A stretch of 48,689 bases of DNA, from contig CAMUZE010000010.1 in the NCBI GenBank assembly GCA_947165135.1, positions 1-48,689 on the forward strand, given 5' to 3'. The position numbers and the translations under genes are program-made. The stretch's first letter is position 1; each line of letters opens with the position of its first letter. The notes beneath the pieces were generated by a model. The model did not search any database. It was given only the letters and a program-made list of their open reading frames with translations, and was not told the DNA's origin. Below are positions 15,788-46,349 of this stretch, in pieces. This DNA comes from an uncultured Clostridia bacterium. GTDB taxonomy: Bacteria > Bacillota_I > Bacilli_A > RF39 > UBA660.

Positions 15788-15816
15788 TTGATTTTTGTTA
15801 ATAATAAACATATAAT
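15788..15816 (+). promoter_or_regulatory. Promoter of the RloA/RloB pair
   Basis: TTGATT (15788-15793), 17-nt spacer, TATAAT (15811-15816). Predicted transcription start is about 15823, directly ahead of AAAGGAAGG and the start codon at 15842. Confidence 0.6.
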
Positions 15817-15841
15817 ATATTTAAAGGAAGGAAAATTAAAT

Positions 15842-17077
15842 ATGATTATCGAGTTTACATTATCGAATTTTTTATCGTATAAAAATGAAGTTACTTTTAG
15901 TATGCTTGGAAGTGCTAGTGAAGAACATAAAGACAATTATGTTATGTTTGGAGAAAAAAAGATATTAAAAACTGCTGCAATATATGGAGCAAATGCGAGT
16001 GGAAAAAGTAATTTATTCAAAATTCTAACCAATATAATTATGATGATTAGGAGATCTAACATTATGAATTCTGATACTAAATTACCAATTATACCATTTA
16101 AACTAGATAAAAAGTCTGCTAAAAGCCCAAGCGAATTTGAGATAAAATTTATTACCAACGGAATAAGATACGTTTATGGATTTAAAGCAGATGAAAATCA
16201 AATTTTTGAAGAATACCTATATTATTATCCTAATGGAAAGGAGTCATTGATATTTGACAGAAAAAACAATGGATATTCTTTTAAAAGAGAAGATGAAAGC
16301 TTTTTAAAACCAATTGCTTCTAAAACACCATCCAATCGATTCTTTATTGCAAGTGCTACTTATTGGAATTATGAAAGAGCAAAAGATGCATTTAATTTTT
16401 TTGAAAATATATTCAATACAATGTCAGATTTGTCAAAACTTCAGGATGATTCATTTGTTAAATATTATAATGATAAAAGTGGAAAACTTAAAGAATTTGC
16501 TCTTCAATATTTGGCAAAGGCGGATTTAAATATTGTAGGATTTGAGGTAAACAGGATTCTTGTCCCTAGAGAATTACTAAATCTACCTGATTTTATGAAA
16601 AATGACGTGCCTGACCAAATTGAAATGTATGGTGCAAGATTTAAACATAAAAATAGCGATGAATACTTGGATTTTGAAGAAGAATCTATGGGAACAAAGA
16701 TATTGTTTGATTTTATTCCTTATTTGATGAATGCTGTAAATAATGAATCAATTTTAATGATTGATGAGCTAGATAGAAGTTTGCATCCATATTTAATTGA
16801 ATTAATTATTAAAATATTTAATGATAAGGAAATAAATAAATCTAATGCACAGTTGTTATTTAATACTCATGATACTAATTTACTTAATTTAAATAGTCTT
16901 AGAAAAGATCAAATATGGTTTACTGAGAAAGACAATGATACAGGTATTAGTAATTTATATTCACTTGGAGATTTTGCAATTAAAAATACTGAAAATATTG
17001 AAAGGGGATATTTGCTAGGAAGATATGGAGCAATTCCTTTTATAAATAATGATATAAGCCTATGGAAAGAAGAGTAA
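15842..17077 (+). CDS. RloA/AbiL-type AAA ATPase (OLD-like ABC ATPase fold)
   Basis: A 411-residue ATPase. The start at 15842 is set by AAAGGAAGG and by MIIEFTLSNFLSYKNEVTFS, the usual beginning of this family; an in-frame TTG at 15788 lies in the promoter. GANASGKSN near residue 50 is Walker A, EEESMGTKILFDF near 280 is the signature region, ILMIDELDRSLHP near 305 is Walker B, and FNTHDTNLL near 340 the H-loop. The partner gene overlaps by 16 nt and encodes RloB. RloA/RloB pairs correspond to the lactococcal AbiL abortive-infection system and are often found beside restriction genes. The ATPase probably senses infection and controls the RloB effector. Confidence 0.88.
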   Translation: MIIEFTLSNFLSYKNEVTFSMLGSASEEHKDNYVMFGEKKILKTAAIYGANASGKSNLFKILTNIIMMIRRSNIMNSDTKLPIIPFKLDKKSAKSPSEFEIKFITNGIRYVYGFKADENQIFEEYLYYYPNGKESLIFDRKNNGYSFKREDESFLKPIASKTPSNRFFIASATYWNYERAKDAFNFFENIFNTMSDLSKLQDDSFVKYYNDKSGKLKEFALQYLAKADLNIVGFEVNRILVPRELLNLPDFMKNDVPDQIEMYGARFKHKNSDEYLDFEEESMGTKILFDFIPYLMNAVNNESILMIDELDRSLHPYLIELIIKIFNDKEINKSNAQLLFNTHDTNLLNLNSLRKDQIWFTEKDNDTGISNLYSLGDFAIKNTENIERGYLLGRYGAIPFINNDISLWKEE

Positions 17078-17688
17078 TTAGAGAGGATAGAAAGAATAAA
17101 AAATTAAAGCCAAAAAAGATAATACTCATAGCAAGCGAAGGAAAAACTGAGAAAGAATATTTTAATGGATTTAATGGGGTTAATAAAAATTATAGGATTT
17201 TATTTGCAAAAGGAAATAATACAGATTCTAATAATCTAATTTGTAGTCTTATTAATAGCATTAAGAAAAATAAATTAAATGAGTTTGAAGATTTTAATGC
17301 ATTCTGTGTATTTGATATTGATACTTATGGTTTTAAAGAAAATATTAATTTAAAAGCAATCAAAGAATGTATATCAAACAAAATAGTTCCAATCACTTCT
17401 ACACCTTGTATTGAATTATGGTTCTTATTGCATTTTGAGGAAGTAAGCCATTATATTGATAGTAAACAAACTATAGAAAAATTAAAGAATCATATAACAG
17501 ATTATAAAAAAGGAAAAGATATTTATAATGAGTTAATTAATAATATTGATAAAGCAATTATACGTGCTAAAAGACTGGAGCAGAAGCAACTATCTAATGG
17601 CCATACAATTGGAAGTATTAATGCAAATCCAAATACAGAAGTATTTAAATTGATTGAATACTTAAATTATATGGAGAAAACAAATTAA
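17062..17688 (+). CDS. RloB family protein, AbiL-type effector
   Basis: A 208-residue protein starting within the ATPase gene, without a clear ribosome binding site of its own, so probably translated by coupling. After a basic N-terminus (about 1-20) comes LIASEGKTEKEYF near residue 28, then CVFDIDTYGF near 88, then TSTPCIELWFLLHFE near 115. The early Glu and the later Asp-x-Asp recall Toprim-type catalytic layouts, as proposed for RloB. The C-terminal half is helical, with GSINANPNTEVFKLIEYL. It is taken to be the nuclease-like effector of the pair. It ends in a 14-bp hairpin terminator. Confidence 0.85.
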   Translation: MERRVIREDRKNKKLKPKKIILIASEGKTEKEYFNGFNGVNKNYRILFAKGNNTDSNNLICSLINSIKKNKLNEFEDFNAFCVFDIDTYGFKENINLKAIKECISNKIVPITSTPCIELWFLLHFEEVSHYIDSKQTIEKLKNHITDYKKGKDIYNELINNIDKAIIRAKRLEQKQLSNGHTIGSINANPNTEVFKLIEYLNYMEKTN

Positions 17689-17725: not shown

Positions 17726-18667
17726 TTATTTTAGAAAATTCATTATTAAATCTATTATTATTTCTTTTTCTTTTGGATTTGATTCTGCTATTAAAAGTGT
17801 CATAGCTGTAAGTGTATTATTATCTATTACTTGCTTATTATCTTTATATAAAATATTATAATAATTCAGAAAATATATAAATAGAGTAGCAGCAATTCTT
17901 TTATTACCATCTACAAATGGATGGTTCTTAATTAGAGTATATAAGAAATTACATGCTTTTAATTCAACACTATCATATAAATCTTTATTATCAAATGTAA
18001 GGTATATATCATTAATAATTGATTCTAATCCATGATTTCTTTCTATACCAAATATATTACTATCATTATTGAATTTTAGTTTATTAATTAGATTAATACA
18101 ATCTTCATATTTAATTATTCTTTTATCTTTTGTTCCTTTAACTTTTGATAATTTTTTATGATCATAGCCATCTAATAAATCTAGTGATTTTGTATATTTT
18201 CCGATAACATGTAATATATCTTTTGCTTCTGTATCTGAGATTCTGTCATTTCCTCTATTAGCAATTTCTATTAATTTAACACTTTTTTCTAAAAATTCTA
18301 ATCTTTTTTGATTAATAGCAACACCCTTTAACATATAATCTTTTAAAATAGATGTAGCCCATTTCCTGAATATAATACCATTTTGTGATTTTACTCTATA
18401 ACCGATACTAATTATCATATCAAGATTATAGTATTCTATTTGACGGGTTATTTCTCTATTTCCTTCTTTTTTAACTGTCGCAAATTTTGCGACAGTTGAT
18501 ATGTCTACTTCTTCTTTTAATGCATTATTTATGTGTTTTCTTATTGTTTTGATATCTCTATCAAATAGACTGGCCATTTGATTTGAATTTAACCAAACTG
18601 TCTCGTCTTTCATATTTACTTCTAATTTAATATTTTGATTTTCAAAAATAACAATTTCATTATTCAT
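17726..18667 (-). CDS. RhuM N-terminal domain fused to Fic/Doc domain
   Basis: A 313-residue protein. The start at 18667 is chosen for the AAAGGAGGT before it. Residues 1-120 are a RhuM-type module: ETVWLNSNQMASLFDRD, IRKHINNALKEE, STVAKFATV, YYNLDMIISIGYRV and FRKWATSILKDY. It is related to phage KilA-N/Bro-like DNA-binding regions. A linker helix leads to a C-terminal Fic/Doc fold with HPFVDGNKRIAATLF near residue 260, matching the HPFx(D/E)GN(K/G)R active-site motif. Fic/Doc enzymes modify proteins with AMP or phosphate and often act as toxins or defence effectors. No separate antitoxin such as Phd is next to it. A structured leader with a terminator lies upstream. Confidence 0.87.
   Translation of the reverse strand: MNNEIVIFENQNIKLEVNMKDETVWLNSNQMASLFDRDIKTIRKHINNALKEEVDISTVAKFATVKKEGNREITRQIEYYNLDMIISIGYRVKSQNGIIFRKWATSILKDYMLKGVAINQKRLEFLEKSVKLIEIANRGNDRISDTEAKDILHVIGKYTKSLDLLDGYDHKKLSKVKGTKDKRIIKYEDCINLINKLKFNNDSNIFGIERNHGLESIINDIYLTFDNKDLYDSVELKACNFLYTLIKNHPFVDGNKRIAATLFIYFLNYYNILYKDNKQVIDNNTLTAMTLLIAESNPKEKEIIIDLIMNFLK
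18473..18497. repeat. 25-bp palindrome inside the RhuM coding region
   Basis: Two perfect 12-bp arms, AACTGTCGCAAA and TTTGCGACAGTT, surround one base. It encodes the conserved RhuM segment TVAKFATV, whose near-symmetry partly explains it. A DNA or RNA role is possible but unproven. Confidence 0.6.
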
Positions 18668-18741
18668 TTTATACCTCCTTTTATTGTTATAATTATTTAT
18701 CAAATTATTTTATTCTACATATTTTCTATCCACCTCCTTAG

Positions 18742-21273: not shown

Positions 21274-21301
21274 TTGACTATTAGTATCAATATGATATAA
21301 T
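21274..21301 (+). promoter_or_regulatory. Promoter of paralogue 1
   Basis: TTGACT (21274-21279), 16-nt spacer containing GTATCAA, TATAAT (21296-21301) with TG one base ahead. Closely similar in sequence to the promoter at 22049-22077. Confidence 0.8.
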
Positions 21302-21333
21302 ACATACTTGATGTGAAAATGAGGGCTTAAATA

Positions 21334-22029
21334 ATGAAAATAATAGATATGTTTAAAGAATTAAAAAAACATGAAGGTGAAGAAATTGAGTGTTATTATT
21401 GGTGGTATGGTAATCCAATTAAATATGAAGATACATTAGAAAAAGTGAAGTATTATAATGGTATTGAATGCAGAAATTCATTTATTCCTTTCATTGGATA
21501 TGGTTGTGCCATAGTTGAAATTAAACTTAAAAGCAATAATAAGGCTATATATTATAATTCAAACATTGAAAATGGTTATGATAGAAGAAACCAAAATGAA
21601 ATTGAAAAATTAAAAGTGATATCTTTTGGTCATGAAATTGTATTTAAACAAAGAAGTAGAAGGGTTACAAAAGAACAAGAAATTAAGACTGAAATTGAAC
21701 TTGCAGATAAACAAGCAAGACTTAAAAAAAGTATTTTAACAAAAAGAGGACTTAAATACGTTCGTGAGGATTTAAGAGAAGAATGGATTAAATATGTTGA
21801 TATCAATACTACAGATTTTTATTCTTGTGGTGTTGTTGAAATGGCATGTGATATGATGGATGAATTAAATAATGGAGCTTCAAGAGAAGATATAACACAA
21901 ATGTTACTTAAAAAAGGTGCAACGACGCGTATGATAGCACTAATTAGAGAAGCTATTTTATATTTTACAAACCTTATGGATGTAATAAATTTACCAAATA
22001 ATACAGGACCTCAAAGGAAATTAAAATAA
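21334..22029 (+). CDS. Tandem paralogue family, member 1 (unknown function)
   Basis: A 231-residue soluble protein of a family I do not recognise. Residues 1-85 look like a small beta-rich domain: MFKELKKHEGEEIECYYW, then FIPFIGYGCAIVEIKLKS and AIYYNSNIENGY. A charged segment (about 105-140) with many Lys/Arg follows, possibly a helix. The C-terminal helical part holds KRGLKYVREDLREEWIKYV, NTTDFYSC, VEMACDMMDELNNGASRE and AILYFTNLMDV. The same order and motifs recur in the next three genes. No signal peptide or membrane helix and no recognisable catalytic motif. It has its own consensus promoter, and GAGGG lies before the ATG. Confidence 0.85.
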   Translation: MKIIDMFKELKKHEGEEIECYYWWYGNPIKYEDTLEKVKYYNGIECRNSFIPFIGYGCAIVEIKLKSNNKAIYYNSNIENGYDRRNQNEIEKLKVISFGHEIVFKQRSRRVTKEQEIKTEIELADKQARLKKSILTKRGLKYVREDLREEWIKYVDINTTDFYSCGVVEMACDMMDELNNGASREDITQMLLKKGATTRMIALIREAILYFTNLMDVINLPNNTGPQRKLK

Positions 22030-22048
22030 TATATTAGATTTGTAAAAT

Positions 22049-22077
22049 TTGACTTTTTGTATCAAATGTGATATAAT
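22049..22077 (+). promoter_or_regulatory. Promoter of paralogue 2
   Basis: TTGACT (22049-22054), 17-nt spacer containing GTATCAA, TATAAT (22072-22077) with TG ahead. It shares -35, spacer core, -10 and leader words (GATxGTGAAAA) with the promoter of paralogue 1, so the promoter was duplicated with the gene. Confidence 0.82.
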
Positions 22078-22106
22078 GTATATGCGATTGTGAAAAAGGG
22101 GGAAAT

Positions 22107-22814
22107 ATGGAAAATATTATTTATGCAGATGGTATGTTTAAAGAACTAAAAAAATATGAAGGACAAGAAATAGTATGTTATTATTGGCATTATGGAAGAG
22201 CCGTTACTTGTGAAGATAAATTAGAAACAGTAAGCTATTTTAGGGGAGTTGAATGTAAAGGTTCATTTATACCATTTATTGGAAGTGGTTGTGCAATTGT
22301 AGGTATAAAACTTAAAAGTAATGGATCAACCATATATTATAATCCAAATATTGAAGAAGGTTACAATTTAACAGACCAAAAAGAAATAGATAAAGTTAGG
22401 GCTTTATCATATGGATCTGAAGTTGTATTTAAACAAAAAAACAGAAGAGATATAAGAGAACAAAACGATAAAAAAAGAAGTGAAAATGCTGATAAAAGAG
22501 CCAAATTAAAAAGACAACTTTTAATTAAAAGAGGTCTTTTACATGTCCATGAAGATTTAAGAGATGAATGGGTTAAACATGTCACAATTAATACAACAGA
22601 TGCATATTCATGTGCTATTATTGAAATGGCATGTGATATAATGGATGCATTGAGTGAAGGTGCAAGTAGAGAAATTATTGCGGAAATTTGTGCTAAAAAA
22701 AGAGCATCTGGGTATTCTATAGGTTGTGCTATTGAAATGGTTTTGCATTTTACAAATCTTTTAGAAGTATTAGCATTACCAGAAAGTACTAATCCACAAA
22801 GAACATTAAAATAA
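22107..22814 (+). CDS. Tandem paralogue family, member 2 (unknown function)
   Basis: A 235-residue protein, the closest relative of member 1. Shared stretches include MFKELKKYEGQEIVCYYW, FIPFIGSGCAIVGIKLKS, IYYNPNIEEGY, KRGLLHVHEDLRDEWVKHV, INTTDAYSC, IEMACDIMDALSEGASRE and the ending NPQRTLK (NTGPQRKLK in member 1). The linker at about 110-145 is strongly basic, with KKRSENADKRAKLKRQ. A Gly-rich ribosome site, AAAAAGGGGG, precedes the ATG. It is driven by its own promoter and probably starts a three-gene transcript with members 3 and 4. Function unknown. Confidence 0.85.
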   Translation: MENIIYADGMFKELKKYEGQEIVCYYWHYGRAVTCEDKLETVSYFRGVECKGSFIPFIGSGCAIVGIKLKSNGSTIYYNPNIEEGYNLTDQKEIDKVRALSYGSEVVFKQKNRRDIREQNDKKRSENADKRAKLKRQLLIKRGLLHVHEDLRDEWVKHVTINTTDAYSCAIIEMACDIMDALSEGASREIIAEICAKKRASGYSIGCAIEMVLHFTNLLEVLALPESTNPQRTLK

Positions 22815-22837
22815 TTTTTAAATATTGGGGGTTCAAA

Positions 22838-23575
22838 ATGAGAGTATTAGATATGTTTAAAAAATTAAAAGAACATGTTGGTAAGAAAATCGATTGTGAA
22901 TACTGGTATGATGGTAAATTAGTTACAGATACTATAACATTAGCTGGTGTAAAATATTATGATGGTATTGAATATACGGACGAATATAGTCCATTTCATA
23001 GATATATTTCATTTATAGGATCTAGAGTAGCAATTAAAACTATTAAACTTAGTAGTAATAATGAAGTTTTATACCATAATCCAACAGTTGAAGTAAGATA
23101 TGATAAAACTGACATTGATTCAATTGATAAAGCAAAAGCAAGATTTTATGGAGATGCTGTAGCACTTAAACAAAGAAGAAGAAGAATTAATAGGCAACAA
23201 GATATTAAAATGGATTTAGAACAATCAAATAAGATGGCTTTATTAAAAAAATCGATATTAAAGAAAAAAGGTTTAAATTATGTTAAAGAAGAATTGAAAA
23301 ATGAATGGTCTGAATATGTTGATAAAAGTGTTACAGATTCATATTCATGTTCACTTGTAGATTTAGCTGTTAAATATATGGAAGCATTAATTAACGGAAA
23401 ATCTCAAGAAGAAATTGATATGTTACTTGATGATCGTAAATATTCAGAATATACTATATTAATGGTAGTTAGAGCAGTAAGTTATTTTACTAATCTTTTG
23501 AATAAAGATAATAGTTCAACATTAGAATTAAAAAATAATAATTCAAAATTAGAATTAAAAGATTATACTAAATAG
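22838..23575 (+). CDS. Tandem paralogue family, member 3 (unknown function)
   Basis: A 245-residue member, more diverged. It keeps MFKKLKEHVGKKIDCEYW, an insertion of about 6 residues (EYSPFHRY) before ISFIGSRVAIKTIKLSS, VLYHNPTVE, a basic linker with KQRRRRINRQQ, KKKGLNYVKEELKNEWSEYV, VTDSYSC and VSYFTNLL. The C-terminus has a short degenerate repeat, LELKNNNSK then LELKDYTK, in place of the PQRxLK tail. It begins 23 nt after member 2 behind an unusual GGGGG site and without an evident promoter, so it is likely co-transcribed. Function unknown. Confidence 0.83.
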   Translation: MRVLDMFKKLKEHVGKKIDCEYWYDGKLVTDTITLAGVKYYDGIEYTDEYSPFHRYISFIGSRVAIKTIKLSSNNEVLYHNPTVEVRYDKTDIDSIDKAKARFYGDAVALKQRRRRINRQQDIKMDLEQSNKMALLKKSILKKKGLNYVKEELKNEWSEYVDKSVTDSYSCSLVDLAVKYMEALINGKSQEEIDMLLDDRKYSEYTILMVVRAVSYFTNLLNKDNSSTLELKNNNSKLELKDYTK

Positions 23576-23587
23576 GAGGAAATAAAA

Positions 23588-24223
23588 ATGTATTGGGAAG
23601 AAATAATTAATAAAGTTAAAAATAATATTGGAAAAAATGTAACTATTTTATATAACAAAATGGGTCGTTTAGAAACATATCAAAGAAAGTTATGTAAAGT
23701 TACAGATACTGGTGTATTTTTAGAAGCAGTATATCTTCCTTTTATGGGATATGGTTCTTACATAGAAACAATTTTACTTACTAAAAATAGAAAAGTTATA
23801 TATGAAAATCCATCTTTTGAAAAAACTGATAAAAAAGCTTCTGAAAACTTTGAAAGACAAGCATTAAAACTATATGAAGATGAAAATGAAAGACAAGAAG
23901 CAATCGATTGTGCTATGTCAAGATTAAAAGGACCATATCTAGCAAAAAAAGGACTTCCATATGTTAAAGAAGAATTAAAAGAAGCATGGGAAAGTTATGT
24001 TGAAATGAAAACTATTAATCCAACTTCATGTGCAATTTTAGAAATGAGTATTAGAGTAATGGAAGCAATTAGTAATGGCGCAGACAAAGTTGCAATAGAT
24101 GAAATGTTAGTTATAAATGGATTTGATGTAAATATGTACATTGATATAATGAGAACGATTAAGTATTTTACAAATTTAATTAAAGAAGATACAAAGAATC
24201 CAGCTCCAACATTATCTAAATAA
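23588..24223 (+). CDS. Tandem paralogue family, member 4 (unknown function)
   Basis: At 211 residues the shortest and most diverged member. The N-terminal domain is recognisable by IGKNVTILYNKMGRLETYQ, LPFMGYGSYIETILLTKN and VIYENPSFE, while the basic linker is shortened. The C-terminal part keeps KKGLPYVKEELKEAWESYV, the TSC motif (NPTSCAILEMS), VMEAISNGADK and IKYFTNLI, and the tail reads APTLSK. AGGAGG lies before the ATG, 12 nt after member 3. A terminator follows. The conserved GL-x-YV-(R/K/H)E-(D/E)L-(R/K)-x-(E/A)W core across all four members marks the probable functional site. Confidence 0.82.
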   Translation: MYWEEIINKVKNNIGKNVTILYNKMGRLETYQRKLCKVTDTGVFLEAVYLPFMGYGSYIETILLTKNRKVIYENPSFEKTDKKASENFERQALKLYEDENERQEAIDCAMSRLKGPYLAKKGLPYVKEELKEAWESYVEMKTINPTSCAILEMSIRVMEAISNGADKVAIDEMLVINGFDVNMYIDIMRTIKYFTNLIKEDTKNPAPTLSK

Positions 24224-24232
24224 AAAAATTAT

Positions 24233-24259
24233 AAGTGTAGTAAGGCTACACTTTTTATT
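24233..24259 (+). terminator. Intrinsic terminator of the paralogue cluster
   Basis: AAGTGTAG (24233-24240) and CTACACTT (24246-24253) with a 5-nt loop, then T-rich sequence. It separates the cluster from topA. Confidence 0.87.
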
Positions 24260-24309: not shown

Positions 24310-24336
24310 TAATTAGAGATGTCAAAAGGAGAGTTC

Positions 24337-26355
24337 ATGAAAAATCTAGTAATTGTAGAAAGTCCAAGTAAAAGTAAGACTATTGAAAAATATTTAGGTA
24401 GTGATTATAAAGTATTATCATCAAAAGGTCATATAAGAGATTTATCAACAACAGGTAAGTATGGCTTAGGAGTTGATTTAGAGGATCATTTTAAGCCAAA
24501 CTATATTTTAATGAAAGGTAAGACTAAACTTGTTAGTGACCTTAAAAAAGAGGCTAAAAGTGCTTCTAAAGTTATTCTTGCAACCGATCCAGACCGTGAA
24601 GGAGAAGCAATTAGTTGGCATTTAAAAGAAGCTTTAGGAATTAAAGATGATAATTATGGTAGAGTAGTATTTAATGAAATTACTAAACCTGCGATTGAAG
24701 AAGCATTCAAGCATCCTAGACTTATTGATGAAGATTTAGTTCATAGTCAAGAATCTAGAAGAATATTAGATAGAATTATTGGATTTAGATTAAGTAGACT
24801 TATGCAAAGTAAGACTGATGGTAAGTCAGCTGGACGTGTACAGAGTGTTGCTTTAAAATTAATTGTAGATAGAGAACGTGAAATTGATGCATTTATACCT
24901 GAAGAGTATTATACAATTGAAGCAGATTTTAAAGATTTTAAAGCTGAACTAAAAAAGTTTAGAGGAAAAGATATAGAAATAAAGACTGCTGTTGAGGCAG
25001 ATGAAATACTTTCTAAATTATCAAATGCTTATAATATTGATAATGTTGAAACTAAACTTAAAAATAAACAGAGTAAATTACCATTTACTACAAGTACTTT
25101 AACTCAAATGGCATCTAACAGATTAGGATTTCCTGCATCTAAAACAATGAGTATTGCTCAAACTTTATATGAAGGTGTTAATTTAGGAGAAGATACTATT
25201 GGTTTAATTTCATATATGAGAACAGATTCTATTAGACTTTCTGATGTGTTTGTTAGTGATACTAAGAGTTATATAGCATCTAACTTTGGAAAAGAGTACA
25301 TCGGTTATGTTAAAACTGCTAAAAGTAATGATAATGTACAAGATGCACATGAAGCAATTAGACCTACAAGTATATTAAGAACTCCTGAGTCAATTAAGAA
25401 ATATTTAAAACCTGATGAATACAAATTATATAATTTAATATATGTAAGGACTCTTGCTTCTTTAATGGCTGATGCTAAAGTAGAAGCAACATCTGTTGAT
25501 TTAGAAAATCAAGGGTATATATTTAGGGCAAATGGTTCTATATGTGTATTTGATGGATATTTAAAAGTATATAAAGATTATGAAGATAGTGAAGATACAA
25601 TACTTCCTGATTTTGCAAATTATAAATCTAAGGTAATTGTTGCATCTAAAGTATATAAATTACAACATTTTACTGAACCAAAGCCAAGATTTACAGAAGC
25701 AAAGTTAATTGCTGAACTTGAACGTTTAGGAATAGGAAGGCCAAGTACATATGCTAAAATAATTAGTGTTTTAAAAGAAAGAAAATATGTACAAATTAAA
25801 GATAAGAAATTCTATCCAACATCTACTGGTATCACAGTAACTGATAAATTGCAAGAATTCTTTTCATCAATTATAAATGTTAATTATACTGCTAATATGG
25901 AACGTGAACTAGATGAAATAGCTGATGCTAAATTAGTTTGGTATGAAGTATTAGATAAATTCTATAAAGATTTTGATCCATTATTACAAACTGCATTTAA
26001 ACAAATGGAAAAAGATTCACCAGAAGAAACTGGTGAAATATGCCCAGACTGTGGTAATCCTTTAGTTATTAGAAAAGGTAAATATGGTTCTTTTGTAGCA
26101 TGTTCTAATTATCCAAAATGTAAATATGTTAAAAAAGAAGAAAAAACAATTGTAGAAATATGTGATTGTCCAAAATGCGGACACAAAATAATAGAGAAAA
26201 AAACTAAAAAGGGTAAAACATTCTATGGATGTAATAATTATCCAAAATGTAATTATGCACTTTGGGATAAACCGACTGGAGAAATGTGCCCTAACTGTAA
26301 TGGCTTGATGGTTGAGAAAAAATCTGGTATAATATGCAGCGAATGTGGAAAATAG
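24337..26355 (+). CDS. topA: DNA topoisomerase I (type IA)
   Basis: A 672-residue enzyme relaxing negative supercoils. The start at 24337 follows AAAGGAGAG; an in-frame ATG at 24319 is too early. The Toprim domain opens with LVIVESPSKSKTIEKYLG and contains ATDPDREGEAI with the Mg-binding Asp-x-Asp. QESRRILDRIIGFRLS, GRVQSVAL and the active-site SYMRTDSIRLS (catalytic Tyr near 297) follow. The C-terminus has three Cys4 zinc ribbons, beginning CPDCGNP, CPKCGHK and CPNCNG, as in Bacilli enzymes. No dprA or trmFO neighbour is seen. It has its own promoter; the next gene follows by 21 nt. Confidence 0.97.
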   Translation: MKNLVIVESPSKSKTIEKYLGSDYKVLSSKGHIRDLSTTGKYGLGVDLEDHFKPNYILMKGKTKLVSDLKKEAKSASKVILATDPDREGEAISWHLKEALGIKDDNYGRVVFNEITKPAIEEAFKHPRLIDEDLVHSQESRRILDRIIGFRLSRLMQSKTDGKSAGRVQSVALKLIVDREREIDAFIPEEYYTIEADFKDFKAELKKFRGKDIEIKTAVEADEILSKLSNAYNIDNVETKLKNKQSKLPFTTSTLTQMASNRLGFPASKTMSIAQTLYEGVNLGEDTIGLISYMRTDSIRLSDVFVSDTKSYIASNFGKEYIGYVKTAKSNDNVQDAHEAIRPTSILRTPESIKKYLKPDEYKLYNLIYVRTLASLMADAKVEATSVDLENQGYIFRANGSICVFDGYLKVYKDYEDSEDTILPDFANYKSKVIVASKVYKLQHFTEPKPRFTEAKLIAELERLGIGRPSTYAKIISVLKERKYVQIKDKKFYPTSTGITVTDKLQEFFSSIINVNYTANMERELDEIADAKLVWYEVLDKFYKDFDPLLQTAFKQMEKDSPEETGEICPDCGNPLVIRKGKYGSFVACSNYPKCKYVKKEEKTIVEICDCPKCGHKIIEKKTKKGKTFYGCNNYPKCNYALWDKPTGEMCPNCNGLMVEKKSGIICSECGK

Positions 26356-26376
26356 TATTGTTTTGGGGGTAATAAT

Positions 26377-26898
26377 ATGTTTAATAAAAAAATAGAAGAT
26401 TTTTTTAAAAAACATAATTTATGGAATAAAGAAATGTTTTCATATATATATAGTATAAGCAATGAAGTAGATTACTATGATAAAAATATTAATTTTGCAG
26501 TTGGCTGTCCTCCTAAAGTTAATAATCATACAGGTAAAATTGAAGGATTTCAATTAACAATACCATATTGCGTAGATGAAATAACTACAATGATTGCTGT
26601 TCATGAAATTGCTCATGCAATTTATTGGTATAAAAAAATCGGACAAACTTATGATGAAATTCAAGAAGAACTATTTCCAATGATAGTTGAAAGATTATAT
26701 GTAGAAGAAAATAAAACATCCACGTTAGAATCATATGAAAAATTTTTGGATAGTACAATTGATAGTAAAGAAGATTCAAGTTATAGTTTTGCTCTTGTTA
26801 ACAGAGAGTCATTTATGAAAACAAATCTTGATGATTTTAAATTATTTGATAAATCTGCAAGAAAACTTGCTAGAAAATGGAGAAGAAAAAATAGATAA
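26377..26898 (+). CDS. Small HExxH putative zinc metallopeptidase-like protein
   Basis: A 173-residue protein without signal peptide. MIAVHEIAHAIYWYKK near residue 70 contains the HExxH zinc motif, and ELFPMIVERLYVEE about 25 residues later has Glu residues that could be the third ligand. The C-terminus is highly basic (KSARKLARKWRRKNR). I do not recognise a named family; the motif layout fits small intracellular gluzincin-like proteins. It lies 21 nt after topA behind a GGGGGT site, so it is probably co-transcribed, and a terminator follows. Proteolytic function is inferred from the motif only. Confidence 0.65.
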   Translation: MFNKKIEDFFKKHNLWNKEMFSYIYSISNEVDYYDKNINFAVGCPPKVNNHTGKIEGFQLTIPYCVDEITTMIAVHEIAHAIYWYKKIGQTYDEIQEELFPMIVERLYVEENKTSTLESYEKFLDSTIDSKEDSSYSFALVNRESFMKTNLDDFKLFDKSARKLARKWRRKNR

Positions 26899-26913
26899 TT
26901 AATCTATTTTTTT
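26887..26913 (+). terminator. Intrinsic terminator after the HExxH gene
   Basis: AAATAGAT (26889-26896) pairs with ATCTATTT (26902-26909), followed by seven T. Confidence 0.8.
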
Positions 26914-26942
26914 GTTTTTTTAATAAAAATATACTAAAATAC

Positions 26943-26970
26943 TTGCTTTTTTAAGTAGTTATGCTAAAAT
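26943..26970 (+). promoter_or_regulatory. Promoter of the HU gene
   Basis: TTGCTT (26943-26948), 16-nt spacer, TAAAAT (26965-26970) with TG one base before the -10. The 5' leader is about 60 nt. Confidence 0.65.
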
Positions 26971-27039
26971 AATTATGTAAGCATCGTATATGACGTATGA
27001 TATATTTGAAGCTTATAATTATATGGGAGGTAATTTACG

Positions 27040-27312
27040 ATGAGTAAGACTGAATTAGTAGAATTCGTTGCTGCTAAAGCCGGATTAACTAAAGCTGATG
27101 CTCTAAGAGCATTAGATGCTGTATTAGAAGGTGTTACTACAGGACTTAAGAAAGAAAAGAAAGTTGCATTAGTTGGATTTGGAACTTTCTCAGCTAAAAA
27201 AAGAGCTGCTAGAGAAGGAATCAATCCTTTAACTAAGAAATCTATTAAGATTCCTGCAAAAGTAGTTGCATCATTCAAAGCTGGAAGCAAATTAAAAGAT
27301 GCTTTAAACTAA
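27040..27312 (+). CDS. hup: HU-family DNA-binding protein
   Basis: A 90-residue histone-like protein of standard size. MSKTELVEFVAAKAGLTKAD is the N-terminal helical dimerisation half; ALVGFGTFSAKKRAAREG and INPLTKKSIKIPAKVVASF are the beta arms that enter the DNA minor groove, with the Asn-Pro tip conserved. It bends and compacts DNA as a dimer. GGGAGGT precedes the ATG; monocistronic with its own promoter and a strong terminator. Codon use looks more biased than in neighbours (AAG, GCT, CTT), as expected for high expression. Confidence 0.97.
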   Translation: MSKTELVEFVAAKAGLTKADALRALDAVLEGVTTGLKKEKKVALVGFGTFSAKKRAAREGINPLTKKSIKIPAKVVASFKAGSKLKDALN

Positions 27313-37081: not shown

Positions 37082-37969
37082 ATGAATTATTATGAAGAAA
37101 TAAAACAGTCTCTAGTAAATAATGAAATAACAAAAAGAGTAAAAGATTATTCAAAAAATAAAAGTGATTTAGAAACATATTATAAAGTAGGTAAACTTTT
37201 AAGTGAAGCAGGTAAACATTATGGTGAAGGAATAATTAATAAGTATTCTATTAAACTCATCTCAGAATTAGATAAGAAGTATAATACAACTTTATTAAAA
37301 AGGATTAGACAATTTTATTATATGATTGAAAATGGTGCCCTTTTGGGGCACCAATTAAGTTGGAGTCATTATAGAGAACTAATTCCATTAAAAGATATTA
37401 ACATAATTAATTACTATATTGATATATGTATTAAATTAAAACTTAGTAGAAATGATTTAAGGAAAAGAATAAAATCAAAAGAATATGAAAGATTACCAGA
37501 AGAAACCAAAAACAAATTAATAAATAAAGAGAGAACAGATATAAAAGAATTAATAAAAGAACCAATAATAATAAAAAGTAATTTAATAGATAAAGAACAA
37601 ATAAGTGAAAAAATGTTACAAAAGATAATAGTAGAAAATATAAGTGAATTTATGGAAGAGTTAGGTAGTGGATATAGTTTTATAAAAAATGAATATAAGA
37701 TAAAAATAGGAGAAACTTATAATTACATAGATTTATTACTATATAACATTCAATTTAATTGTTATGTAATAATAGATCTAAAAATAACAGAATTAAAGAA
37801 AGAACATATAGGACAAATAGAGGTATATATGAATTATATAGATGAAAACATAAAAACAATATATCAAAACAATACTATTGGTTTAATACTTGTTAAAGAA
37901 AATAATCAATTTATAATTAAATATTCTAGTGATGAAAGAATTATTTCTAGAGAATATAATTTGTTATAA
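37082..37969 (+). CDS. YhcG/DUF1016-family PDDEXK nuclease
   Basis: A 295-residue protein of the DUF1016 family. The N-terminal helical domain has YYKVGKLLSEAGKHYGEGII, LKRIRQFYYMIENG and QLSWSHYRELIPL. The C-terminal nuclease fold has LQKIIVENISEFMEELGSGY, YIDLLLYNIQFNCYVIIDLK with the Asp and Asp-x-Lys of a PDDEXK site, and HIGQIEVYMNYID. Family members are often carried near restriction systems or mobile elements and as solo genes; their biological role is not settled. It lies alone between tsf and the serpin gene behind AGGAGG. A GC-rich palindrome interrupts residues about 85-91. It is likely an accessory gene acquired into a core region. Confidence 0.85.
   Translation: MNYYEEIKQSLVNNEITKRVKDYSKNKSDLETYYKVGKLLSEAGKHYGEGIINKYSIKLISELDKKYNTTLLKRIRQFYYMIENGALLGHQLSWSHYRELIPLKDINIINYYIDICIKLKLSRNDLRKRIKSKEYERLPEETKNKLINKERTDIKELIKEPIIIKSNLIDKEQISEKMLQKIIVENISEFMEELGSGYSFIKNEYKIKIGETYNYIDLLLYNIQFNCYVIIDLKITELKKEHIGQIEVYMNYIDENIKTIYQNNTIGLILVKENNQFIIKYSSDERIISREYNLL
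37333..37353. repeat. GC-rich inverted repeat inside the YhcG-family gene
   Basis: TGGTGCCC and GGGCACCA arms (8 bp, perfect) with a TTTTG loop encode NGALLGHQ. This is one of the most GC-rich spots in a very AT-rich region and could form a stable hairpin in the mRNA. Confidence 0.65.
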
Positions 37970-45335: not shown

Positions 45336-45800
45336 ATGAAAAAGAAAGGTTTTACATTAGTAGAATTACTAGCTGTTATTGCAATTCTAGCTATCTTAGT
45401 AATCATTGCATTACCAAATGTACTAGAAATGTACAAACAAGCAAGAAAAAACTCATTCGAAAATGAAGTTAAAGAAGTATTTAGACAAGCTCAGCAACAA
45501 TATTTACTTGACTCAATGGGAATGGACGGTGGAGATGCAAAAGTATATTCTAACCAAGAGGGTAAAGATGCTGAATTAGATCTACAAGGTGGAAATGGTA
45601 CTTTTGAATACTGCGTTATAGTTAATAGTAGTGGAGTTGTGACTAGTATGAGAGTATCTAATGGAACTTATGCTTATACTTTAACTGATGGTAGTACACT
45701 TGAAGATGCAGCAAATATTTCAGTGCCTGAAACTACAGATACGAAAGGAACTTCAATTTCAGGAAGCGGAGCAAATAGAAAATGTGCTCAAGCATCATAA
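45336..45800 (+). CDS. Type IV pilin-like protein (ComGC-like), copy 1
   Basis: A 154-residue prepilin. MKKKGFTLVELLAVIAILAI has the short basic leader, the G/F prepilin-peptidase cleavage site, the conserved Glu at mature position 5 and the start of the hydrophobic helix, which continues to LPNVLEMY. The exposed domain has NSFENEVKEVFRQAQQQY and a Gly/Ser/Thr-rich end with one Cys pair (FEYCVIV and NRKCAQA). This form is like ComGC or pseudopilins of Gram-positive bacteria. GGAAGGAAT precedes the ATG; it has a consensus promoter, so probably well expressed. No assembly ATPase or platform gene is in the window. Confidence 0.9.
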   Translation: MKKKGFTLVELLAVIAILAILVIIALPNVLEMYKQARKNSFENEVKEVFRQAQQQYLLDSMGMDGGDAKVYSNQEGKDAELDLQGGNGTFEYCVIVNSSGVVTSMRVSNGTYAYTLTDGSTLEDAANISVPETTDTKGTSISGSGANRKCAQAS

Positions 45801-45821
45801 TTTATGAAAGGAAATAATCAT

Positions 45822-46349
45822 ATGAAAAAGAAAGGTTTTACATTAGTAGAATTACTAGCAGTTATTGCAATTTTAGCTATCCTAGTAATAATTGCATTAC
45901 CAAACGTACTTGAAATGTACAGACAAGCAAGAATGAATTCATTTGAAAATGAAATAAAAGAAATATATAGACAAGCTCAACAACAATATTTAATGGTATC
46001 TATGGGATCAAACTTTGGTGGTGGCAGCAAATTGTTTTTCAAAACAGGTGGAGATAATACAAAAGATGGAAGTACTATGGCTAATGCAAAAAAATTAGAT
46101 ATGCAAGGTGGATCTGGAATTAAATATTGTGTTGAACTTGATTCAACTGGAGCTGTTAAAGAGTTAAGAGTATCAAATGGAACATACCTATATGAATATA
46201 ATGGTGATATTATTGATGCCTCAATGATTAATACCGGTAAAGATGCTACTGGAAGTAAAGATTCTGAACTTGCAAAAACTAATGTTATTAAATCACCAGC
46301 CGAAAAAACAGAAGTGTTAAGTGACGGACATATTTGTACTGACAATTAG
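45822..46349 (+). CDS. Type IV pilin-like protein (ComGC-like), copy 2
   Basis: A 175-residue prepilin; the start at 45822 follows AAAGGAAAT, and an in-frame ATG at 45804 lies in that site. The first 30 residues, MKKKGFTLVELLAVIAILAI onward, are identical to copy 1, and NSFENEIKEIYRQAQQQYL is nearly so. The rest diverges: GSNFGGGSKLFFKTGGDN and LDMQGGSGIKYCVELDSTG, then VKELRVSNGTYLYEYN and a final Cys (GHICTDN). The Cys pair positions match those of copy 1. It begins 21 nt after copy 1, in one operon, and ends in a terminator. Clearly a tandem duplication with a diverged surface domain. Confidence 0.9.
   Translation: MKKKGFTLVELLAVIAILAILVIIALPNVLEMYRQARMNSFENEIKEIYRQAQQQYLMVSMGSNFGGGSKLFFKTGGDNTKDGSTMANAKKLDMQGGSGIKYCVELDSTGAVKELRVSNGTYLYEYNGDIIDASMINTGKDATGSKDSELAKTNVIKSPAEKTEVLSDGHICTDN

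Follow-up and report, generated by a model that had tools for sequence, protein, structure and literature searches.

The DNA analysed here (the window) is the 48,689-nucleotide contig CAMUZE010000010.1 from an uncultured Clostridia bacterium (assembly GCA_947165135.1; GTDB lineage Bacillota_I; Bacilli_A; RF39; UBA660). Between the gene for a CpsB-like phosphatase (cpsB) and topA, it carries four intact tandem paralogues on the plus strand (21334–24223), each coding for a small N-terminal barrel, predicted to be Sm/Hfq-like, and a helical C-terminal domain that very probably descends from a common ancestor with Tad4, an inhibitor family found in phages. On the basis of sequence comparisons and structural modelling, we tentatively read these proteins as accessory host adaptors that may move horizontally and probably act in phage conflict, with an Sm-like barrel that would oligomerise and a Tad4-derived domain that would dock on other proteins.

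Four tandem paralogues share a two-domain layout

An earlier reading of the letters alone (the sequence-only reading) had described four consecutive genes of 231, 235, 245 and 211 residues, coding for a small N-terminal barrel, a Lys/Arg-rich linker and a helical C-terminal domain. All four were recovered as plus-strand open reading frames within 21334–24223. The start that it gave for the cluster, 21274, is actually where a TTGACT −35 box begins, the open reading frame of gene 1 starting at 21334. Gene 1 (21334–22029, 231 aa) has its N-domain at about 21334–21564, followed by a basic linker and the Tad4-like C-domain (about 21742–22026). The corresponding domains lie at about 22107–22349 and 22527–22811 in gene 2 (22107–22814, 235 aa), whose structure was modelled, at about 22838–23086 and 23264–23572 in gene 3 (22838–23575, 245 aa), and at about 23588–23815 and 23945–24220 in gene 4 (23588–24223, 211 aa), the most diverged copy, which has a short linker. 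Genes 2, 3 and 4 are 57, 43 and 33% identical to gene 1 in full-length alignment, and a whole-genome search with gene 1 returned the four cluster genes and nothing else, indicating that the mutual likeness of the four proteins is not due to chance.

The two-domain layout was borne out by the predicted model of gene 2, in which a linker of low confidence, containing a long helix, connects a barrel to a helical domain. The motifs proposed earlier needed some correction. PF(I/M)G is found in genes 1, 2 and 4, but gene 3 has SFIG, after a 6-residue insertion; the NP pattern following the barrel is present as N(S/P); and the C-domain core, given as GL-x-YV-x-E-x-L-x-x-x-W, holds in the form GL..V.E.L...W, the version of gene 2 being GLLHVHEDLRDEW. 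The SC motif is invariant in all four proteins. The linker is Lys/Arg-rich in genes 1–3 (isoelectric point (pI) 9.7–10.1), but not in gene 4 (pI 5.0, net charge −2).

The C-terminal domain very probably shares its ancestry with phage Tad4

The kinship with Tad4 (Pfam PF25186, 'Type I Thoeris inhibitor'; PHROG 9822; gathering score 25 bits) came to light through intermediates. Relatives that were retrieved with the window-family profile and contain both domains match Pfam Tad4 in their C-domain, with E-values of 1e-19 (71 bits; genome G302, protein L012), 9e-18 (65 bits; G321, L043), 3.5e-12 (47 bits; G062, L015) and 5e-9 (37 bits; G150, L011). When the comparison was restricted to the proteins of the window and of G003, a metagenome-assembled genome (MAG) from goat omasum that retains genes 2–4, hhalign against 22 phage Tad4 proteins gave P 83.7% and E 8e-6 over 63 columns. 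The wider two-part family reached E 1.6e-7 over 92 columns against the phage Tad4 profile. In a control on a similar profile comparison, the real score was 32.7, whereas 200 column shuffles reached at most 22.3 and the reversed profile scored 12.7.

The predicted structures point in the same direction. The C-domain helices in the gene 2 model (residues 149–162, 166–183, 188–197 and 202–215; predicted local distance difference test score (pLDDT) about 81–93) align one for one, and in the same order, with helices 1–4 of a phage Tad4 model (6–15, 19–40, 45–56 and 63–76; mean pLDDT 86). The N-x-D-x-Y and M-E/D...G positions agree between the two, and the alignment is in register. We consider it highly probable that the window C-domain is a four-helix domain that shares its descent with Tad4 of phages, homology and architecture being the strong parts of our overall reading. 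The sequence-only reading had recognised no named family. This stands for the four proteins themselves, none of which is matched directly by a library, but it is partly refuted by the relatives, which connect one of the two domains to a characterised family, and this connection also favours the conflict role that had been mentioned as one possibility.

The activity of Tad4 against type I Thoeris, a bacterial immune system, is taken here from the name of the family; Tad4 reportedly blocks an immune protein by direct binding. Bacillus phages have standalone Tad4 proteins of about 110 aa, to which proteins of Mycobacterium and Listeria phages are more distantly related. In IMG/VR, 45 loci code for Tad4; nearly half of the proteins examined from this collection are longer than the standalone form, and several have a clear extra N-domain of about 100 aa. 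Tandem copies occur in both families: Bacillus phage Bobb has two adjacent Tad4 genes (L075, 2594–3231; L101), which both match PF25186. Unlike Tad4, which stands alone or with a 'DFNG' domain, the window proteins are host-encoded and have an Sm-like N-domain. Two-part phage proteins (L113, L124, L114, L125 and L136) consist of an N-domain with an FxFNG motif, assigned to no named family, and Tad4. The layout of those in IMG/VR (L113, L124) is analogous to that of the window proteins, but their N-domain is of another kind and their C-domain retains the Tad4 tail. FxFNG-type N-domains also precede Tad3-like domains in host genomes (L021, L032, L033).

Scans of viral contigs with window-family queries and a tblastn search of phage records with gene 1 yielded no match, so that the two-part window family is unseen in the viral collections searched. 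Searches of PDB sequences with whole-family, N-domain and Tad4 profiles returned nothing, and the phage Tad4 model had no convincing match among PDB structures (best Z 5.0). No window protein matched Tad3 (PF25185, Type I Thoeris inhibitor). Relatives of the C-domain type from the same bacterial family do match it weakly in the same region (for example L033, 6e-4), but all these matches are under the Pfam cut-off (27 bits; best relative 20 bits) and span about 28 residues.

The N-terminal domain is predicted to adopt an Sm/Hfq-like fold

In the gene 2 model, residues 7–78 form one helix and a five-strand barrel, the arrangement of Sm, LSm and Hfq proteins; the small barrel of the sequence-only reading is thus predicted to be Sm/Hfq-like. 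VIA-align 2 was applied with residues 3–74 to the 1000 PDB chains ranked highest by Foldseek. The best 50 rows were nearly all Sm, LSm or Hfq (Z 7.2–7.8, 55–65 residues), with a single GerQ entry among them, and the best root-mean-square deviation was 1.2 Å over 55 residues. The weak Pfam echoes, KOW (0.02) and LSM (0.12, for one member), are also small barrels. With the whole gene 2 model as query, Foldseek returned no significant match (best E 0.1 in the viral library and 0.56 in the PDB). Because neither this search nor the Hfq profile comparison described below was significant, and Z remained below 8, we speak of a predicted Sm-like fold and not of a member of the Hfq family. In contrast to Sm, LSm and Hfq proteins, the N-domain is fused to a large C-terminal domain, and it shows no detectable Hfq sequence homology.

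The paralogues are lineage-specific and appear to have been exchanged between species

The cluster is unlikely to be fixed in close relatives: it is present in 2 of the 18 genomes of the genus, those of the window and G003. All 18 have the same topA; the sequence preceding it varies by species, and 16 of the 18 species lack the cluster genes. Relatives, at least partial ones, were found in 27 of 291 genomes of the bacterial family, 38 of 385 of the order and 3 of 392 in a phylum-wide draw (two of the three from the same bacterial family), the E-value threshold admitting a few weak partial matches to these counts. One such match, L034 (G048), appears to be an IscU-like protein and is not to be counted as a relative.

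The relatives are modular. Both domains occur together in G158, G150, G321, G302 and G118, and tandem pairs are found in other lineages (G199, G292). Other genes code for the N-domain only (G055, G274, G158), for the C-domain only (G032, G235, G080, G099, G289) or for a doubled C-domain (G209). In G480, a gene on the minus strand (L080, 7520–8524) codes for a fusion of DnaJ (7e-7) with the Sm-like N-domain and a diverged form of the C-domain; it adjoins two acetate-kinase-like genes. As judged by eye in the flanks of 20 loci, the neighbours of the relatives read as host genes and not as phage structural genes. A prophage origin was rejected, since phage genes were found neither at the cluster nor in these flanks, a tyrosine-integrase-like gene being present near the relatives of G158 and G321 only. 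At L081 (G302), a relative at the contig end lies a few kb from type VII secretion-like genes (WXG100, EssC-like ATPase; by eye).

In a phylogenetic tree, the seven proteins of the window and G003 form one clade (95/99). The duplications are therefore lineage-specific, in agreement with the repeated duplication assumed earlier. Genes 2–4 are 98.9% identical between the window and G003, with 4, 12 and 5 base differences, respectively, versus 127 in topA (synonymous divergence (dS) 0.33); other shared DNA is 88–94% identical. Compared with G003, divergence over 24319–27240 is mosaic: topA differs by about 6%, but identity is about 99% both in the preceding cluster and in the metallopeptidase-like and hup genes that follow topA, near identity extending over 26343–27240. 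Since near-identical DNA flanks the diverged topA on both sides, these data point to a recent exchange of the gene 2–4 set between the two species by recombination, with the caveat that both genomes are MAGs with 5–6% contamination. In G003, gene 1 is missing and the flank of its promoter is joined directly to the promoter of gene 2, as expected from a deletion between the two promoter copies.

The idea that the copies had been under selection for variety was not supported. The pairwise ratio of nonsynonymous to synonymous changes between paralogues is below or about 1, with no pair clearly above 1, and synonymous changes are near saturation. Neither these values nor the near identity of the orthologues lend support to positive or diversifying selection.

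Proposed role and alternative explanations

If the adaptor reading is correct, the four genes, which arose by lineage-specific tandem duplication, would belong to an accessory family of the host, and each of their proteins would run from an Sm/Hfq-like N-barrel through a charged helical linker to a four-helix C-domain that shares an ancestor with phage Tad4. The Sm-like part would drive self-assembly, perhaps into mixed rings of paralogues, and may bind RNA. Docking on a partner protein would fall to the C-domain, just as Tad4 is understood to dock on a Thoeris immune protein, and the copies may each have drifted toward a different partner. The set borders a variable exopolysaccharide and defence region, and its role would not be housekeeping but that of a mobile modulator of immunity, or a decoy, in phage–host conflict. 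A bolder version, which we find rather unlikely, is that some uncultured Bacilli made a phage-type immune-inhibitor domain part of a mobile toolkit of their own, in which rings mixed from Sm-fold paralogues would present several Tad4-derived docking heads, either as decoys for immune enzymes or to regulate them. To our knowledge, no Sm-ring scaffold for immunity has been described before. If true, the adaptor reading would link an anti-immune family of phages with a family that is borne by hosts, moves horizontally and has a new partner domain. It would raise the question of whether phages adopted Tad4-type domains that were originally interaction modules of the host, or the reverse. It would also provide an Sm-fold candidate in a clade without detected Hfq, and a paralogue set offering concrete candidates for the binding of TIR or other immune proteins.

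Several results weigh against this reading. The four window proteins have no match to Tad4 (PF25186) at E up to 10, and they stay under all library cut-offs (Pfam, PHROGs, NCBIfam), with noise alone. They end after helix 4 and a short tail, without helices 5–6 of Tad4 (W..GEELRxWHN...NPA). In phages, this last part is the most conserved segment of Tad4, with a nearly invariant G..L..W and an NPA motif. As it is missing here but kept in relatives (L009, L012, L043), the window set is a shortened, diverged branch, and an interface may be gone with the lost tail. The basis of the Sm-like assignment is a model with a mean pLDDT of 71 together with Z-scores below 8, which alone are no proof and may reflect a common arrangement; the hhalign comparison of the N-domain with five Hfq sequences was not significant (score 11 versus a shuffled maximum of 17). 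Furthermore, there is no TIR match (PF13676, PF08937) in the window genome, and ThsB_TIR, present in 20 of the 291 family genomes, is distributed independently of the window family (2 shared versus 1.9 expected). Homology to Hfq by sequence was dropped because the profile score was under the shuffled maximum, and partnership with a host TIR protein because of the lack of TIR in the genome and the chance-level co-occurrence with ThsB.

We considered the possibility that the proteins are mainly RNA-binding post-transcriptional regulators, with an Sm-like ring in an Hfq-less clade, a helical domain that is merely an adaptor, and a kinship with Tad4 that reflects a shared interaction module devoid of immune role. 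The predicted fold, the basic linkers of genes 1–3 and the fact that Hfq (PF17209) was found neither in the window genome nor in 60 genomes of its class are all consistent with this proposal. Yet the patchy presence in the bacterial family ill suits a core RNA chaperone, no Hfq sequence match was obtained, and interspecies exchange and tandem copies fit accessory genes, so that we regard this explanation as unlikely, though credible. It is improbable that the proteins are working Thoeris or TIR inhibitors of phage origin, retained by the host or an integrated element and acting like phage Tad4. The relationship of the C-domain to Tad4, the tandem Tad4 pair of phage Bobb and the two-part phage Tad4 proteins would fit such a role, but the proteins lack the most conserved Tad4 segment (W..GEELRxWHN, NPA), the genome has no TIR gene, co-occurrence with ThsB is not observed, and phage genes adjoin neither the cluster nor its relatives.

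The likeness to Tad4 could, in principle, be a coincidence of small helical domains, in a family unrelated to phage counter-defence: helical profiles can match by chance, and a direct match between the window proteins and the Pfam family is absent. Against this stand the intermediates that match Tad4 at 1e-19, a real profile score above those of 200 column shuffles and of the reversed profile, and the agreement of the N-x-D-x-Y and M-E...G positions and of the helix order, which make a coincidence most improbable. The position between cpsB and topA and the inverted repeat present in both promoters, a candidate operator, could suggest local regulators or modifiers of the exopolysaccharide or topA neighbourhood. 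This is very unlikely, as 16 of the 18 species in the genus have the same topA without such genes, the neighbours of relatives elsewhere are unrelated, and the cluster is equipped with promoters and a terminator of its own.

Promoters and genomic neighbourhood

The promoters of genes 1 and 2 are separate but related, each with 11 of 12 matches to TTGACT...TATAAT. The gene 1 promoter (21274–21301, plus strand; TTGACT-16-TATAAT) contains in its spacer the inverted repeat TATCA-ATA-TGATA (21285–21297), a candidate operator. The gene 2 promoter (22049–22077, plus strand; TTGACT-17-TATAAT), a diverged copy of the former, contains TATCA-AATG-TGATA (22060–22073). The TATCA-n3/4-TGATA repeat has 2 copies in the window, both in these promoters, versus 0.56 expected from mononucleotide shuffling. 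A terminator-like hairpin (24233–24253, plus strand) follows gene 4 and precedes topA; 2 terminator-like sites were detected versus 0.4 expected. No Rfam family was found in the window. In other species (L153, L154, L162), different accessory genes, including apparent tandem paralogues, occupy the slot before topA; this slot may therefore be an insertion hotspot.

A defence setting for the cluster, noted already in the sequence-only reading, is supported by the genes upstream. An AbiL abortive-infection pair (15788–17688, plus strand), made up of an AAA ATPase (AbiLi, 5e-92) and an RloB-like protein (AbiLii, 1.5e-24), lies within the variable exopolysaccharide locus, 3.6 kb upstream of the cluster. 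It is followed by a gene for a RhuM-family protein with a Fic/DOC domain (17726–18703, minus strand), which matches the PADLOC candidate PDC-S23 (1e-117); together, these genes are located 2.6–5.5 kb upstream of the cluster. Elsewhere in the window, a DUF1016/YhcG PDDEXK nuclease gene (37082–37969, plus strand), between tsf and a serpin-like gene (by eye), matches the PADLOC candidate PDC-S02, and two tandem prepilin-like genes (45336–46349) code for proteins with near-identical N-termini.

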